64,000 nucleotides of DNA, from contig NZ_CP097384.1 of NCBI RefSeq assembly GCF_024584705.1, positions 1,178,001 through 1,242,000 of the forward strand. Direction: 5' to 3'. Source of the stretch: Blastopirellula sp. J2-11. GTDB taxonomy: Bacteria > Planctomycetota > Planctomycetia > Pirellulales > Pirellulaceae. Made by a program: the position numbers and the translations under genes. Shown here piece after piece: positions 836-19,035 of the stretch. Under the pieces are notes generated by a model. The model did no database searches and was not told the origin of the DNA. It was given only the letters and a program-made list of their open reading frames with translations. Position 1 is the stretch's first letter, and every line of letters starts with the position of its first letter.

Positions 836-1729
836 ATGTCATTGCCCGCACGCAATCATCGATTGCCCGAAAATGAAGTCGCCGATCAGGTGATCGCCGA
901 TGCGTTCGCTTCTGACGGTGCGATTGACGTCGACCGTCTGCTTTCGGCATGGGATACCGCAACGACGCGTTTGCAGGAAACGCACGAGGCGCTCCGCCGA
1001 GAAGTGGCTCGTCTCTCCGACGAATTGGAAATCAAAAATCGCGAGTTGGCGCGCAAGAATCGCCTGGCCGATCTCGGCCAGATGGCGTCGCACGTCGCGC
1101 ATGAAGTTCGCAACAGCCTGATGCCGCTAACGATGTACGTCAGCATGCTGAAGCGTCAGTCTGACTTTGGTCCCAGCAGTGCGGCGATCGGCAAGAAGAT
1201 CGAAAACGGTCTGACAGCGCTCGATTCCACCGTCAACGACCTGCTTCATTTCACGTCGGATCGGCAACCGCAGTGGAGTCGCTTCCCGTTGGCGCCCTTG
1301 TTGGAGGAAGTTTGCGAAACGCTGGCTCCGCAGTGCGAGGCGCAAAAAGTGAAGTTCGCGATCGATGTCGATCCGCTGTTAACGGTACGTGCCGATCGCG
1401 GAATGGTTCGTCGCGCCGTGTTGAATTTGGCGCTCAACTCGCTGGATGTCATGAATGACGGCGGACGCTTGTTGCTGACCGCTTGTTTCGGACGATCAGG
1501 CGTCGAGATCGAATGCGCCGACTCGGGACCCGGCTTCAAGCCGGAAATCGCCATCCGTGCTTTCGATCCCTTCTTCACCACCAAAAACACCGGCACCGGA
1601 CTTGGCTTGGCGATTGTCCAGCGAGTCGCGGAAGCCCACGGCGGTCAAGCGATCGCGATGAATTGTCCTGAAGGAGGCGCCGCCGTAACGCTGGTGCTTC
1701 CGCAACCCCGTAAGGAGGTCGCCGCGTGA
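836..1729 (+). CDS. Soluble sensor histidine kinase of the flagellar cluster
   Basis: A 297-residue kinase. Residues 40-75 form a coiled coil, followed by a HisKA dimerisation helix with the H-E-V-R-N box (phosphorylated His near 89), an N-box around 201, the G1 box D-S-G-P-G near 227 and the G2 box G-T-G-L-G-L-A near 253. It has no membrane segment and no clear PAS domain, so it senses through the coiled coil or a partner, as flagellar kinases of the FlgS/FleS kind do. Its stop overlaps the start of the sigma-54 regulator by four bases (GTGA), so the two form a pair. The likely role is timing of flagellar gene expression. Confidence 0.85.
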   Translation: MSLPARNHRLPENEVADQVIADAFASDGAIDVDRLLSAWDTATTRLQETHEALRREVARLSDELEIKNRELARKNRLADLGQMASHVAHEVRNSLMPLTMYVSMLKRQSDFGPSSAAIGKKIENGLTALDSTVNDLLHFTSDRQPQWSRFPLAPLLEEVCETLAPQCEAQKVKFAIDVDPLLTVRADRGMVRRAVLNLALNSLDVMNDGGRLLLTACFGRSGVEIECADSGPGFKPEIAIRAFDPFFTTKNTGTGLGLAIVQRVAEAHGGQAIAMNCPEGGAAVTLVLPQPRKEVAA

Positions 1730-3126
1730 GCATCGTCGAATCCCCGATTGCAACCGGAAACGTGCTGGTCGTTGATGACAACGCCCGCGCTCGCCAGTCG
1801 ATTGTTGACGTCTTGGAGATGTTGGGTCATCGTGGCGCCGCTTGCTCCAGCGCTCATGAAGCGCTCAAGCGGATGGAGACGATCGATTATGACGCCGTCG
1901 TCACCGATCTGCAGATGCCGGGTATGGACGGCTTAGAACTGGTTCAGCAAATTCGTCGTCGTGACGCACATATCCCGATTGTCATGGTCACGGCGCACGG
2001 CAGCGTGTCGACGGCGGTCGAAGCGATGCGATTTGGCGCCGCCGACTATTTGGAAAAGCCGCTCAACGCCGATCGTTTGGAAGCGGTCATCAATCGCGTC
2101 CTGGAGAGCGCCGCCAGCGGTGATCGCGCCACAGTTGCGACTCCCGGCGAAACGAATCAGGTTGCAATGATCGGCGAGAGCCGTCTGATGCAACAAGTGC
2201 GACAACAGATCGCTCAAGTGGCTCCGACCGACGAAACCGTGTTGATCATCGGCGAAAGCGGCGTCGGCAAAGAGCTGGTCGCACGTACGATTCACCAGTG
2301 GAGCCGTCGCGCCGACCGAGCTTTGATCAGCTTGAACTGCCCGGTTTTGTCGGCTCATTTGATGGAAAGTGAATTGTTCGGGCACACGCGCGGCGCCTTT
2401 ACCAGCGCTGACTCGGCCCGCGTCGGACGATTTGAACTGGCCGAACAAGGAACGATTTTGCTGGACGAAATCAGCGAGATCGACTTATCACTGCAAGCCA
2501 AGTTGCTGCGAGTGCTGCAGGAACGTTGCTACGAACGGGTCGGTTCGAGCGAAACCTTGGAGACCGATGTTCGCGTTTTGGCGACTTCCAACCGTGACCT
2601 GCCGGGCGAAGTAACCGCAGGGCGTTTTCGCCGCGACCTTTATTATCGCTTGGCGGTCGTGCCGATCGAGCTACCGCCGTTGCGGCAGCGCCGCGACGAC
2701 ATTCCGTTGCTGGTCGAATACTTTTTGCATCAGACGGCGGCGCGATTGGAGAAGCCGGTTTTTGACATGCAAGCGGAAGCGCTCGATTTGCTCGTGCGTC
2801 ATGATTGGCCTGGCAACGTTCGCGAACTCGAAAATATCGTGACTCGCGCCTGCGTGCTGGCGATCGATGGTCAGATTTCGGCCGACGCCTTTAGCAGCTG
2901 GCTCAATTGCGAATCGAGGGAAGAGGCCTGCGATTCACAAGAATCGCAGGTCGGCGTCAAGCTGGACGAAATGGAACGCCGCTTGATCTCGGCGACGCTG
3001 GAACACTACGACGGTCATCGCGAGAAGACCGCGGCGGCGCTCGGCATTAGCCCGCGGACGCTATCGAACAAACTACGCAGCTATGGGCTGGCCCCGCGTG
3101 CGAAAACGTTCGCACGGGCAATTTAA
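1726..3126 (+). CDS. Sigma-54-dependent response regulator (FlbD/FlgR/FleR type)
   Basis: A 466-residue NtrC-class activator. The receiver domain has acidic D-D near 17-18 and the phospho-acceptor Asp at 61 (V-T-D-L-Q-M-P-G). The AAA+ domain has Walker A G-E-S-G-V-G-K-E at 176-183 and Walker B I-L-L-D-E. The loop that touches sigma-54 reads G-A-F-T-S-A near 223 rather than the usual G-A-F-T-G-A. A Fis-type helix-turn-helix closes the protein. It starts at GTG 1726, overlapping the kinase. The sigma-54 promoter at 3265 lies just downstream, before flgB, which makes it the obvious target. A binding site was not identified. Confidence 0.9.
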   Translation: MSIVESPIATGNVLVVDDNARARQSIVDVLEMLGHRGAACSSAHEALKRMETIDYDAVVTDLQMPGMDGLELVQQIRRRDAHIPIVMVTAHGSVSTAVEAMRFGAADYLEKPLNADRLEAVINRVLESAASGDRATVATPGETNQVAMIGESRLMQQVRQQIAQVAPTDETVLIIGESGVGKELVARTIHQWSRRADRALISLNCPVLSAHLMESELFGHTRGAFTSADSARVGRFELAEQGTILLDEISEIDLSLQAKLLRVLQERCYERVGSSETLETDVRVLATSNRDLPGEVTAGRFRRDLYYRLAVVPIELPPLRQRRDDIPLLVEYFLHQTAARLEKPVFDMQAEALDLLVRHDWPGNVRELENIVTRACVLAIDGQISADAFSSWLNCESREEACDSQESQVGVKLDEMERRLISATLEHYDGHREKTAAALGISPRTLSNKLRSYGLAPRAKTFARAI

Positions 3127-6183: not shown

Positions 6184-7362
6184 ATGACGAACAAAATTGA
6201 TCAGCAGATGATTCGCAAAGCGGCGATCGTCGTCGCGGAATTGGATCCCGACGCCGCCGACGCGTTGCTGGACGGCTTTCCGGAAGAAATCGCCCAGCAG
6301 GTTCGTTACGAATCGATGATGGTCGACGACGTTCCGGTCGAAGAGCGGCGCGCCGTCCTGGCCGAGTTCATGCAGCGTCGTAACGGTTCCGCCGCCAAAA
6401 CGCAAACGCACGACGAACTCATGCTTAGTTCGACGGTTCGCCATCCTGCGTCGCGAACAAAATCCCCTGCGTACGAAGCGAAGCCAACCGCTCCGGTGCC
6501 GCCGCCGTTTCATTTTTTGAACGAAGCGCCGCCAGAAATGTTGGCGCCGTTCTTTGAACAAGAGAGTCCGCAAGTAATCGCCGTCGTCCTCTCACATCTC
6601 GAGCCGGTGCGGGCCTCTGCGATCTTACGCGAGTTGCCGATCGACCTGCAAGCGACCGTGATTCAACGTCTGGTGGATCTCGGACATACCGATGCGGAAG
6701 TGCTGCATGATATCGAAACGCGTCTGCAATCGATTGTGCAAGATCAACTGCAAGCGATGACGCATCGCCGCATTGGCCTGTCAGCCGCCAAAGCGATCTT
6801 GGCAGCTTCGGACGAAGCCAGTTCGGCCGAAGTGCTGAAAGCGCTGAAGACGCGCAGTGCGGCGATGGCCATCCGATTGGGCGCTGAGGAGCGCCCCGCC
6901 GCTCCTGAAAAAGCAGAGCCTTCGGAACATTCGGACGCGGTGTATGGAGATCATTCGCCGATCCAGCCGCAGCGAGTTTCGACCGACATTGCGGCTGCGG
7001 ATGGAGTCGTCAAAAAGTCGACGCCCAAACCGGCTGTCGCCAAGGTCGAACCGCCGGTCGAGGCGTGTCTGCCTTTGGCCGACTTTGTCAAGTTTGATGA
7101 CATGTTGTTAGGTCGCGTGCTGTCCGAAGCCGAACCGCAGACCGTGCTGTTGGCGTTGGCTGGCGCATCCAACGCAGTGGCGCAACGCTTCAATCGTGGT
7201 CTGTCGAAACGAGAGATTCATGACTTACAGCGTCGCATTCGTGATTTGCAGCCGGTGTTGATCCGCGATATTGACGCCGCGCAAAAACGATTGGGAACAA
7301 TCGCCGCGCGGGTGATCGCACAGGTTCAACAGGGTGGTTCTCGTTTGTCAGCATCGGCGTAA
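6184..7362 (+). CDS. fliG: Flagellar motor switch protein FliG
   Basis: At 392 residues this is longer than the usual 330-340. The N domain (R-K-A-A-I-V-V-A-E-L-D) and a middle domain with E-S-P-Q-V-I-A-V-V-L-S-H-L (family motif EHPQ) are followed by a disordered linker at about 235-300. The C-terminal torque domain begins L-A-D-F-V-K-F-D-D. Aligned without gaps to the E. coli torque helix, Lys264 becomes Ala326, Arg281 stays Arg343, Asp288-Asp289 become Arg350-Arg351, and Arg297 becomes Leu359. FliG binds FliF and takes force from MotA, encoded here at 16209. Identity is secure; the altered charge pattern is unusual. Confidence 0.93.
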   Translation: MTNKIDQQMIRKAAIVVAELDPDAADALLDGFPEEIAQQVRYESMMVDDVPVEERRAVLAEFMQRRNGSAAKTQTHDELMLSSTVRHPASRTKSPAYEAKPTAPVPPPFHFLNEAPPEMLAPFFEQESPQVIAVVLSHLEPVRASAILRELPIDLQATVIQRLVDLGHTDAEVLHDIETRLQSIVQDQLQAMTHRRIGLSAAKAILAASDEASSAEVLKALKTRSAAMAIRLGAEERPAAPEKAEPSEHSDAVYGDHSPIQPQRVSTDIAAADGVVKKSTPKPAVAKVEPPVEACLPLADFVKFDDMLLGRVLSEAEPQTVLLALAGASNAVAQRFNRGLSKREIHDLQRRIRDLQPVLIRDIDAAQKRLGTIAARVIAQVQQGGSRLSASA

Positions 7363-13044: not shown

Positions 13045-15873
13045 ATGGGTCTAGCATCGGCCATGACGACTGCGTTAACAGGCATGACGGCCGCCGAAAC
13101 GCAGATTGACGTGCTGGGCAATAACCTGGCGAACTCGCAAACGGTCGGCTTTAAAGCTTCCGATGCGTTGTTCGCCAATCAGTTTTTGCAAACGCGCGGA
13201 CTAGGTTCTAAACCAAGTGAAACGGACGGCGGAACCAATCCGCGGCAAGTCGGTCTCGGCGTGATGGTTGCTGAGATTACCCCTAATTTCACCCAGGGAA
13301 CGATCGAGGTGAGTTCGAATCCCTCGGATCTGGCGATTCAAGGGGACGGCTTCTTTATCGTCCAGGGGAACAACGGCGAACGGCTTTACACCCGCAACGG
13401 CATTTTCAAAACCAACTCGAACAATGAGCTGGTGACGATCGGCGGCGAACGGGTTCTCGGCTTTGGTATTGATGAAAACTTCAATATTCAAGAGACGCAG
13501 CTAGTGCCGTTGACGATTCCGCTGGGCGCCGCAGCTGTCGCCAAAGCGACTGAAAACGTCTATCTCGAAGGTACGCTGCCGGCGACCGGCGATCTGGCGA
13601 CGGTCGCACAGGTGATCGAAAGTTCGATTCTCGGTAACAGCGCTATCCCTCGTCCCGATGTCAGCGGAGCTTCGGCGATTGTGGCGGAGACGCCGGATGA
13701 CAGTTCGTCAACGACCGACAGCGTCTCGACGCCGGGGATTGGTTCGGTCGTTCAAGGGCAAACCGAAGGCGCCGGTTCGGTTCCGGATGGAACGTTCGAC
13801 TATCGCTTTACGTTTTCTGACGCCGCTTTGGCGAATGAAACGCAGGCTTCGGCCAATATCACGGTCAACGTGGCCGATTTGGGGGACGCGATTGCGGACA
13901 ACAATACGGTTACCTTTCCCGGCGCGCCGCAAAGCTCGAGTTACTCGCAAGTCAACATGTACCGCAGCAACGACGGCGGTGCGACCTACTTTTTGGTCAG
14001 CTCGACCGCGATGGGCGCGGCCGTTGAGGATGTTGCGGCGGCGCCGACGGCGACGCAATTGCCGGCGGCCAACATTAACGGAACAGGCTCTGGCGGCTTG
14101 CTGGGAGGGGGCGACGTGTATGAATATCGGTTCGCTTTTGTCGATGCGGATGGAAATGAGACGGTCGCGTCGGATGGTCAACAGATCACCGTCGATGGCG
14201 CTCCGGCCGATGGGAACGGGTACTCGGTCGTCCTCGATAATATTCCGACCAGCGCCGACTATACCGATGTTCGTATCTATCGTACGGCCGCCGGCGGCAG
14301 CGATTTTTATGAGCTCGATACGATCAGTATGGCGGCGGCCGCCGGTCCGTATATTGATGACGGCACGGTGCCGCTGACGGCCAATGAGCTGAACGAAGAT
14401 ACGATCAACGGCAACTACTCTTATCTGGTGACCTTCGGTCGCGCCGGACAGCAAGAGAGTCGACCTTCGTTGGTTCTCGGACCGCAAAACGTTATCAATG
14501 GTCGAATCGATCTAACCAATCTGCCGCTGCCGGCGGGGGGAACGCCTCCTTATGACACGGTGAACGTTTATCGCAATTTGTCCACCGATTCGGCGTCGTA
14601 TTATCTTGTGACCGAACTAGGCGCAGGCGAGAGTTTTGTCGACGATCGATCGGACGCGGCGATTTCGGACCTCACAAATTCGGCCAATCGTCGGATTGAC
14701 TTGGACGGACCAAAAGTCGACTCCAATACGTTATTGGTCGACGTTGTCAAACGGGACGGTTTGAACTTTGAGAGTATGTTCTCGGAAGGGGTGCTGACCT
14801 TCAAAGGTTCCAAAGGGGATCGTACGCTGAATGAAAAATCGTTTACCGTCACCGATACGACGATCGTTCAGGACCTGATCGAATTTCTCGAAGCGTCGCT
14901 TGGCATTCAGCCCTCGGTCAACGGCAACTCGAACCCGATTCCTGGTTCGGAAAATAACATTGCCGATGAGACCGGTGATTTGTCGCAAGGGATTTACATC
15001 ACGACAGAAGGTCGGATTCGCGTCGTTTCTAACAACGGCGTTGACAATGGTATCGACATTGGGCTGTCGTCCTTCCAGTTGGACAACGGTTCAGGCGTGG
15101 TTCAGAATCCGAATCTGAACTTTGGCGTGATTCAAGAAGCTGTCGGTGAAAGCGCCGTGGCCGACGTGATTGTGTACGACTCATTAGGCGTGCCGATGAA
15201 CGTTCGCGTGACGACGGTGCTGGAAAGCCGCAACGGCACGAATACCGTCTACCGTTGGTTCGCCGATTCGCCCGATAATGACGGCGATACGATCGGCGAC
15301 GAGTCGGAAGCGGCGAGAATTGCAGTCGGCACCGGGCTGATTTATTTTGACGGCGACGGCAATTTTATCGGCTCTGACAACAACACGGTGACGATCAACC
15401 GACGCAACATTCCGTCGGAATCGCCGCTTGAGTTCGATCTCAACTTTGACCAGCTGTCGGGCCTGGCGGCTGATAAGGCGACTTTGAACGCATCGCGACA
15501 AGATGGTTCCGGCACCGGTAAGCTGAACAGTTTTATCATTAGCGAAGACGGGATTATCCGCGGCGTCTTTTCCAGCGGCGTCGATCGCGATCTGGGGATG
15601 ATTCAGCTGGCTCGTTTCGCCAATCCCAGCGGTTTGGAGCAACGTGGTAACAATCTGTTCGCCTCCGGCGTGAACTCTGGTCTGCCTGTCCAAGGGGACG
15701 CCGGTGAAGAGGGGATCGGCAGTATCATTGCTGGCGCCGTCGAATTGTCGAATACCGATATCGGCGGAAACCTGATCGACTTGATTCTGGCTTCGACCCA
15801 GTACCGCGGCAGCTCACGAATCATTACAACCGCGCAGCAATTGTTCGACGAATTGCTGAATATCCGCCGATAG
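13045..15873 (+). CDS. flgE: Flagellar hook protein FlgE with three extra tandem domains
   Basis: A 942-residue hook subunit, about twice the usual size. The N terminus has G-M-T-A-A-E-T-Q-I-D-V-L-G-N-N-L-A-N and Q-G-D-G-F-F-I-V-Q-G; the C terminus has I-L-A-S-T-Q-Y-R-G-S-S-R-I-I-T-T-A-Q-Q. These are the paired D0/D1 parts of FlgE. Between them, residues about 250-545 contain three tandem repeats of roughly 90-100 residues. Each has a Y-x-Y/F-x-x-x-F opening, an E-T/E-S turn, a V-x-M/I/V-Y-R strand and a closing D-D or D-V, like Ig/fibronectin-III sandwiches. They would sit on the outside of the hook. Start ATG 13045 follows CGGAGAAG. Confidence 0.92.
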   Translation: MGLASAMTTALTGMTAAETQIDVLGNNLANSQTVGFKASDALFANQFLQTRGLGSKPSETDGGTNPRQVGLGVMVAEITPNFTQGTIEVSSNPSDLAIQGDGFFIVQGNNGERLYTRNGIFKTNSNNELVTIGGERVLGFGIDENFNIQETQLVPLTIPLGAAAVAKATENVYLEGTLPATGDLATVAQVIESSILGNSAIPRPDVSGASAIVAETPDDSSSTTDSVSTPGIGSVVQGQTEGAGSVPDGTFDYRFTFSDAALANETQASANITVNVADLGDAIADNNTVTFPGAPQSSSYSQVNMYRSNDGGATYFLVSSTAMGAAVEDVAAAPTATQLPAANINGTGSGGLLGGGDVYEYRFAFVDADGNETVASDGQQITVDGAPADGNGYSVVLDNIPTSADYTDVRIYRTAAGGSDFYELDTISMAAAAGPYIDDGTVPLTANELNEDTINGNYSYLVTFGRAGQQESRPSLVLGPQNVINGRIDLTNLPLPAGGTPPYDTVNVYRNLSTDSASYYLVTELGAGESFVDDRSDAAISDLTNSANRRIDLDGPKVDSNTLLVDVVKRDGLNFESMFSEGVLTFKGSKGDRTLNEKSFTVTDTTIVQDLIEFLEASLGIQPSVNGNSNPIPGSENNIADETGDLSQGIYITTEGRIRVVSNNGVDNGIDIGLSSFQLDNGSGVVQNPNLNFGVIQEAVGESAVADVIVYDSLGVPMNVRVTTVLESRNGTNTVYRWFADSPDNDGDTIGDESEAARIAVGTGLIYFDGDGNFIGSDNNTVTINRRNIPSESPLEFDLNFDQLSGLAADKATLNASRQDGSGTGKLNSFIISEDGIIRGVFSSGVDRDLGMIQLARFANPSGLEQRGNNLFASGVNSGLPVQGDAGEEGIGSIIAGAVELSNTDIGGNLIDLILASTQYRGSSRIITTAQQLFDELLNIRR

Positions 15874-17829: not shown

Positions 17830-18366
17830 ATGGCTGAATCAACGCCCAATAGCTCCGGTGGGCCTTCGCTGATGACCAAGCTCAAGATATTGGGCGCGGT
17901 GTTGGCGCTTGTTGGCCTGGAATGCATGCTTGCTTACTTCGTCATTCCCTCGCCGGAAGATGTGATTGAAGCGGCGGAAATGCGAGCGCGACAGCACACA
18001 GCCACCGAGCCGGATGTGGAAGATCTAACGGCGGTTTCCGATAAAGCGACCGTTGAAGTGGATCTGAAAAACTTTGGAATCACCGCCTATCAGCCGTTGG
18101 CCAATACGACGCTCCGGATCGACTTTCATCTGTATGCGATGGTGAACGCCGAGAATCAAGGAGAATTTGAGACGCTGATTGAGCAGAACGAACATCGCTT
18201 TCGCGAGCAGGTGCTCGTCACGCTTCGAAGTTCCGAAGTCAGCGACCTGACCGATCCAGGTTTGGGCTTGCTTAAGCGCAAGATTTTAGAGAAAACAAAT
18301 CGCATTCTGGGGAAACCCCTCGTTAAATCAGTCATTTTCAGCGACTACTCCTTTATCGAGCAGTAG
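17830..18366 (+). CDS. fliL: FliL-like flagellar basal-body-associated protein
   Basis: A 178-residue protein with one N-terminal membrane helix (about residues 18-39, L-G-A-V-L-A-L-V-G-L-E-C-M-L-A-Y-F-V-I-P) and a periplasmic domain. The C-terminal part resembles FliL (F-R-E-Q-V-L-V-T-L-R-S-S, ending in a strand with F-S-D-Y-S-F-I-E-Q). FliL surrounds the stator and supports torque. Similarity to FliL is modest, but position after motAB and topology agree. Confidence 0.7.
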   Translation: MAESTPNSSGGPSLMTKLKILGAVLALVGLECMLAYFVIPSPEDVIEAAEMRARQHTATEPDVEDLTAVSDKATVEVDLKNFGITAYQPLANTTLRIDFHLYAMVNAENQGEFETLIEQNEHRFREQVLVTLRSSEVSDLTDPGLGLLKRKILEKTNRILGKPLVKSVIFSDYSFIEQ

Positions 18367-18396: not shown

Positions 18397-19035
18397 ATGA
18401 GCGACGATCAAATTGGGCAGGACGAAATCGAAGAGCTGTTGCGCCAAGCGTCAACCGGAAAGCTCGAAGCGTCCAGCGAAGCGAAACCTGCAGCGGCTGA
18501 TATCGAGTCGCTGGGTCAGAACGAAATCGAAGCGCTGCTGGCAGGCGCCGGAGGAGGCGGATCCGCCGCTTCTAGTTCGGCCGCCAAGCCTGCACATGCC
18601 GCAGCGACGGCCGCTCCGGCAATGCCGCGCGGTACGAGCGATGATGGCATGGACCCGAATGATATCGAATTTCTGCTGAATCAAGCCCAAGCGGCGCTCG
18701 CTTCGCTTGATTCGCCTGCCGAGATGGCGACTGACGCCCAGTTGTTTCAACTCCGCGATTTCGGCGGCGCTCCGGCTAGCACTAGCAAAACCACGATCGA
18801 TCTGGTTCGCGACGTTGAGCTGGACGTCAAGATTGAGCTGGGGCGGACCAACATGTATCTGGAAGACGTCCTCAAGATGAACAAGGGCTCGGTCGTTTCG
18901 CTCGACAAGCTGGCCGGGGATCCTGTCGATATCTACGTGAATGGGCGGATGATCGCTCGCGGCGAAGTGCTGGTCCTCAACGACAACTTCTGCGTTCGCA
19001 TCGCCGAATTGATTGTCGGGGATGGAATCGAATAA
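18397..19035 (+). CDS. fliN: Flagellar motor switch protein FliN with triple FliM-like N-terminal motif
   Basis: A 212-residue switch protein. Residues about 132-210 are the FliN/SpoA domain, with L-D-V-K-I-E-L-G-R-T, L-K-M-N-K-G-S-V-V-S-L-D-K and V-N-G-R-M-I-A-R-G-E-V. The N-terminal 130 residues are unusual: I-G-Q-D-E-I-E-E-L-L at 6-15, L-G-Q-N-E-I-E-A-L-L at 39-48 and M-D-P-N-D-I-E-F-L-L at 85-94 repeat the L-S-Q-x-E-I-D-x-L-L motif that opens FliM and binds CheY-P. Ala/Gly/Ser-rich linkers separate them. fliM, usually just upstream, is absent here. The domain call is secure; the tail's role is inference. Confidence 0.88.
   Translation: MSDDQIGQDEIEELLRQASTGKLEASSEAKPAAADIESLGQNEIEALLAGAGGGGSAASSSAAKPAHAAATAAPAMPRGTSDDGMDPNDIEFLLNQAQAALASLDSPAEMATDAQLFQLRDFGGAPASTSKTTIDLVRDVELDVKIELGRTNMYLEDVLKMNKGSVVSLDKLAGDPVDIYVNGRMIARGEVLVLNDNFCVRIAELIVGDGIE

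Follow-up and report, generated by a model that had tools for sequence, protein, structure and literature searches.

The FliM-type docking helix usually occurs once per bacterium, on the rotor protein FliM. In the window analysed here (the whole stretch of 64,000 nucleotides from Blastopirellula sp. J2-11), a flagellar gene cluster encodes a FliN whose N-terminal tail appears to hold three such helices. The question raised by this locus is whether these helices stand in for those of FliM, add to them, or only resemble them by chance. The genes and the domain that matter most to this question are:

6184..7362, + strand: probable fliG, for the C-ring partner, within this cluster; identified by gene order and sequence
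17830..18366, + strand: fliL, directly upstream of fliN, named from order and sequence
18397..19035, + strand: fliN, 212 amino acids, an N-terminal tail with three EIDALL-type helices followed by the FliMN_C (SpoA) domain
18793..19032, + strand: core domain of FliN (FliMN_C/SpoA), residues 133-212

The open reading frame at 18397-19035 encodes FliN: it matches FliMN_C of Pfam (1.5e-23, 82.9 bits, residues 136-206) and passes the curated cut-off of the fliN model TIGR02480 (105.2 bits; cut-off 84.05). The FliM middle domain, PF02154, has no match in the protein, and the CheC-like phosphatase domain that marks FliY is not found either, as Pfam gives FliMN_C only; the FliY model PRK08119 reaches 108.9 bits, below its cut-off of 218, and covers residues 103-206 only. 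The gene lies after fliL and before fliO and fliP, the place of fliN in a cluster whose other members were assigned solely by their order and sequence: flgB, flgC, fliF, fliG, fliH, fliI, fliJ, a possible fliK, flgD, flgE, motA, motB and fliL, with fliO, fliP, fliQ, fliR and flhB downstream of fliN. Within the cluster, the flgE-like hook protein (13045-15873) looks long, at 942 amino acids, and just upstream of the flagellar genes (836-3126) there are a sensor histidine kinase and an NtrC-type regulator, both named by eye. A plasmid search with FliN returned 106 records, every one of them below 60% identity and with less than 80% of the query covered.

The earlier note had read three copies of LSQxEIxxLL in FliN, at residues 6-15, 39-48 and 85-94. 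All are present at these positions and none is letter-perfect: they read IGQDEIEELL, LGQNEIEALL and MDPNDIEFLL, the S being replaced by G, G and D in copies 1, 2 and 3, respectively, and the Q by P in copy 3. In wider frames of 15 residues, the copies are:

18406..18450, + strand: motif copy 1, residues 4-18, DQIGQDEIEELLRQA; matrix score 13.2; predicted helix 8-19
18505..18549, + strand: motif copy 2, residues 37-51, ESLGQNEIEALLAGA; score 22.3; predicted helix 41-50
18643..18711, + strand: motif copy 3, residues 83-97, DGMDPNDIEFLLNQA, within a longer conserved helix, 87-104; score 10.3, the weakest

The scores come from a matrix of 15 columns, trained on 40 distinct N-terminal motifs of planctomycete FliM from across the phylum. 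Six of the 61 FliM loci above 200 bits were left out of its training, having no motif by the collecting regular expression, and four of these six (L065, L074, L193, L198) show an EIDALL-like stretch by eye. An earlier matrix, drawn from 24 distinct FliM motifs within the window's order, proved too narrow (copy 3 scored -2.1, and several clear copies were missed), and it was therefore replaced. FliM of E. coli K-12, which is outside the training set, scores 22.2 on the phylum matrix, a value matched by copy 2 of FliN, and the best score in E. coli FliN is 2.1. A copy is called strong at a score of at least 8, a threshold reached by about 1% of composition-shuffled FliN tails. Among 20,000 shuffles of FliN residues 1-130, there was at least one match of 8 or more in 236, at least two in 2, and three in none. 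In 22 other chosen proteins of the window (7,135 amino acids), there were two matches of 8 or more, with scores of 13.4 and 13.9, above those of copies 1 and 3. Thus, a single match is weak evidence, whereas three within 94 residues are not. As read from the sequence, all three copies match the FliM N-terminal motif above chance, two of them clearly and the third more weakly. In the AlphaFold2 model (mean pLDDT 62.3, pTM 0.32), the helices are predicted at 8-19, 41-50 and 87-104, the linkers have low confidence, and most of the tail is of low confidence and predicted to be flexible.

It had been proposed that FliN took over signal reception in the absence of FliM. The fliM gene is indeed missing between fliL and fliN, and PF02154 has no match within the whole window. 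However, a profile search of the whole genome, which is a single contig, found a normal fliM: the only PF02154 match lies at 5,097,277-5,097,849 on the minus strand (3e-63), in a full-length FliM of 377 amino acids that has both FliM domains, starts MGNDNVLSQAEVESLLNAM and carries one canonical N-terminal motif, NVLSQAEVESLLNAM. The inference that there is no FliM therefore fails. By coordinates, fliM and fliN are 3.9 Mb apart, and the two genes are more than 1 Mb apart, even if the contig is circular, in all five single-contig genomes that have both, i.e., this genome and four relatives (G000, G009, G014, G021, G030). A FliM match was found in 36 of 40 relatives. Across the phylum, TIGR02480 matched in 157 of 244 genomes and PF02154 in 125 of 244; exactly one motif was present in 59 of the 61 FliM loci above 200 bits, and none at threshold in the other two. 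The genome also holds a third FliMN_C protein (G000:C1:5987103-5987312; L004 856-1764), of 302 amino acids with about 200 N-terminal residues that have no Pfam assignment, and several relatives show a weak match in a frame of about 300 amino acids.

The earlier note held that a normal fliM elsewhere, together with an absence of the repeats from relatives, would make the motif a chance feature. The former exists, as described above, but the repeats are kept in many relatives, in a survey of FliN tails that covered Planctomycetota. Among 30 FliN loci of relatives, three matches of 8 or more were found in 4, two in 12, one in 8 and none in 6 (the FliN frame of one locus, L034, is partial); within the genus of the window, this genome has three strong copies and the other three genomes have two each. 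The 80 best of 523 confirmed relatives, the closest of which is FliN of Blastopirellula marina DSM 3645 (94% identity), have four matches in 4, three in 25, two in 31, one in 16 and none in 4, so that 60 of the 80 have at least two, in a sample biased by being named loci picked as nearest to the query. As far as sequence can tell, FliN of many Planctomycetes carries several copies of the docking helix.

The wider phylum sample comprised 110 FliN loci (30 + 80) from the 157 genomes with a TIGR02480 match, the rest being near-duplicates by genus or the tail of the list. The 59 FliN without FliM in the fetched stretch had three matches in 4, two in 10, one in 15 and none in 30, and a few of these are from genomes in which no FliM was found; the 51 FliN with FliM in the stretch had no match in 50, and the sole match, in the remaining one, sits in a receiver domain. 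A tail motif is thereby seen in 0 of 51 FliN with fliM nearby (the receiver-domain match aside) and in 29 of 59 without, a pattern of which phylogeny may be the cause. As the fetched stretches spanned only 1.4-2.3 kb, they would miss a fliM located a few kb off; in one genome (G099), fliM is about 9 kb from fliN on the same contig. Family f18, another of the same class, has a motif type of its own, e.g., DLLDPSEIEKLLN, with at least one strong copy in all nine of its FliN without FliM in the stretch and at least two in four of the nine (L105, and L136, L138 and L140, which are from one genus). Just one N-terminal copy, such as EELSQEDIDALLAGG, is present in families f42 and f39 (L118, L130 and L137; L134). 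Two loci of family f50, L168 (G080:C1:3151800-3154000) and L174 (G120:C190:31400-33600), have FliN in frame behind a receiver domain (PF00072, 4e-27 and 6e-29), apparently a natural receiver-FliN fusion. One contig titled Candidatus Nealsonbacteria (L218) encodes FliN of the Pirellulales kind, with two strong copies and a weak one; the taxon label is probably a binning error.

The copies are also under purifying selection. Across four congeneric genomes, copies 1 and 2 have pN/pS values of 0.146 and 0, respectively, and copy 3 with its helix has 0.171; the linkers have 0.528, the 20 residues preceding the core 0.261 and the core domain 0.018. In codons 37-49 (copy 2), there are no amino-acid changes against 27 synonymous differences, which, like all these counts, are sums over genome pairs rather than independent events. 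In a second genus (three genomes), the values are 0.066, 0.219 and 0.193 for copies 1, 2 and 3, that of copy 2 resting on two synonymous and two nonsynonymous differences, with 0.394 for the linker, 0.076 for the 20 residues before the core and 0.060 for the core. Being conserved and under purifying selection, the repeats are not low-complexity noise.

We propose that the FliN tail acts as a multivalent docking array beside a normal FliM, with CheY-P as the likeliest putative ligand, a reading to which we give about an even chance. The tail would consist of tandem FliM_N-type (EIDALL) docking helices on flexible linkers, and the array would supply the C-ring base with binding sites beyond the one that the separately encoded FliM provides. 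These sites would tether CheY-P and keep it at high local concentration beside the FliM and FliN surfaces on which it acts. With the FliM1:FliN3 stoichiometry that is reported for Salmonella (PMC6700473, PMC11302681), FliM would contribute about 34 sites to a ring of 34 subunits, and FliN about 306 if all three copies count, or 204 with the two strong ones. It may fairly be inferred that this rotor has more EIDALL-type sites than usual.

As a ligand of the FliN copies, CheY-P is plausible from the proteins that the genome encodes. There are two matches to CheA and eight to CheW, and the CheY of this organism (120 amino acids, 47% identical to that of E. coli) has an E. coli-like face: among 15 E. 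coli CheY positions chosen for comparison, it keeps 12 (D13, D57, T87, A90, K92, Y106, V108, K109, F111, T112, L116, K119), with I95 and A99 changed and K122 opposite a gap. In other bacteria, CheY-P is reported to bind the EIDALL motif of FliM and FliY (PMC9126983) and also FliN, in E. coli (PMC6700473), and FliY of T. maritima is described as having no preference for activated CheY (PMC7355467). The occurrence of a strong copy did not differ significantly with that of chemotaxis proteins, either in the relatives (21 of 24 with CheW and 3 of 5 without; Fisher P=0.19; 29 of the 30 loci, L035 being left out) or in the phylum sample (18 of 33 with CheA and 7 of 22 without; P=0.17; 55 of the 59 FliN without FliM in the stretch, L079-L081 and L089 being removed as their genomes are also in the set of relatives).

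The MinD-like ATPase FlhG controls flagellar number and C-ring assembly. Possibly, though we consider it rather unlikely, the array docks FlhG instead of, or as well as, CheY-P, and the additional sites would tune the delivery of FliM and FliN or the counting of flagella. In monotrichous bacteria, the FliM N-terminus is the reported route of FlhG action, and in B. subtilis an interaction of FlhG with FliY is reported (PMC12826062); this genome has, at 802.7-804.8 kb, flhF (228.1 bits, over the cut-off) adjacent to a MinD-like candidate for flhG. Three relatives (G019, G023, G035; multi-contig drafts, 89, 99 and 95% complete) have one or two strong copies and neither CheA nor CheW was found in them; all five FliN-bearing relatives without CheW, of 29 (these three plus G004 and G028), have FlhF over the cut-off with an FlhG-like neighbour. 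Since the three keep strong copies and also have this pair of genes, FlhG is a serious rival. However, there was no FlhG-like match beside FlhF in 8 of the 29 genomes (G009, G013, G014, G016, G020, G027, G030, G038), in a search with this organism's own FlhG that may miss divergent forms, and six of these eight retain one to three strong copies, whereas FlhF over the cut-off also occurs where FliN has no strong copy (G004, G009). Moreover, the FlhG candidate matches generic MinD/ParA-type models only, below their cut-offs, and is unnamed by NCBIfam; in monotrichous bacteria FlhG is said to bind FliM, not FliN (PMC12826062); and for C. jejuni it is reported that no stable interaction of FlhG with C-ring proteins was detected (PMC6946799). 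On the ligand evidence overall, CheY-P is ranked first and FlhG second, and the two may share the same motif.

A less likely reading, to which we give little weight for the tail as a whole, is that the helices are structural glue, FliN tails packing on FliN dimers or on FliM in the C ring, with the likeness to EIDALL being secondary. The N-terminus of Salmonella FliN is reported to bind a FliN dimer and partly wrap a FliM helix (PMC11302681). Such a role would most likely apply to copy 3, the most conserved element, which continues as an LLxQAExALASxD helix and persists where copies 1 and 2 are lost. In 30 aligned FliN, including those without copies 1 and 2, residues D89, L93, L94, A97 and A100 are almost invariant, and most lack the Q of the motif in copy 3; in the other three congeneric genomes, copy 3 is below the threshold of 8 (5.6-6.3 where values are given). 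Copy 3 may have a different role from copies 1 and 2. Against packing in general, the number of strong copies ranges from none to four by species and the linkers vary in length and sequence, which would not be expected of a fixed packing element, and copies 1 and 2 match the CheY motif of FliM in register.

Chance or low-complexity likeness, which the richness of the tail in A, E, G and S and the two matches elsewhere in the window that outscore copies 1 and 3 might suggest, is very improbable given the shuffles, and is ruled out for copies 1 and 2 by their conservation, copy 3 being less secure. Equally improbable is that FliN replaced FliM as sole receiver of the signal, as the cluster without fliM had suggested, since the FliM gene with its own motif in the same genome rules this out here; it is possible in G060, a 90% complete draft from another family, in which FliN (L134) has one N-terminal motif (score 20.7) and PF02154 has no match.

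The multivalent docking array that we favour can be compared with several known systems. Its copies resemble the N-terminal EIDALL motif of FliM in being a helix of the same 10-15 residues, in the same register, on the N-terminal tail of a C-ring protein, but they are on FliN and there are several, while FliM of this organism keeps one. FliN and FliY with a single EIDAL motif (PMC6946799; PMC12826062, for B. subtilis FliY) are likewise SpoA-type proteins with this motif; full or degenerate EIDAL motifs are described as sporadic in FliN and FliY of 12 bacteria from the spirochetes, Firmicutes, Epsilonproteobacteria and Gammaproteobacteria (PMC6946799), and neither a tandem array nor repeats are mentioned in the accessible text of these sources, whereas FliN here has an array and, by Pfam, no CheC domain. 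In E. coli and Salmonella, FliN is likewise a second contact for CheY-P (here a candidate one), but through its core domain, and the tail of E. coli FliN is without an EIDALL match. In the FlhG-FliM/FliY system, the N-terminus of FliM likewise serves a second partner, although the accessible text makes no mention of docking on a FliN array (PMC12826062). No report of tandem EIDALL motifs in FliN, or study of planctomycete FliN, was found in the open literature, subscription papers being mostly outside the scope of the search. Single EIDAL motifs in FliN are already known; the tandem array appears, tentatively, to be new as far as the open literature shows.

With several copies of the docking helix on FliN, the motor may have more hooks than usual for recruiting its signal or assembly factors. 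It is conceivable, though we hold this only tentatively, that in many Planctomycetia the C ring is a multivalent antenna, on which CheY-P (perhaps in competition with FlhG) is caught by avidity and buffered at the rotor. Each rotor subunit would then offer about 10 EIDALL-type sites rather than one, a single site coming from FliM and the others from three FliN with three copies apiece. If this were true, the copy number of the motif, evolving as repeats are gained and lost, would set the input gain of the switch. Debate continues over how CheY-P is read by the switch and how, once tethered, it acts on FliM and FliN. With a number of FliN sites that ranges naturally from none to four, this lineage would allow a direct test of site number against switching sensitivity, and would let one ask whether one motif serves both chemotaxis and the control of flagellar assembly.
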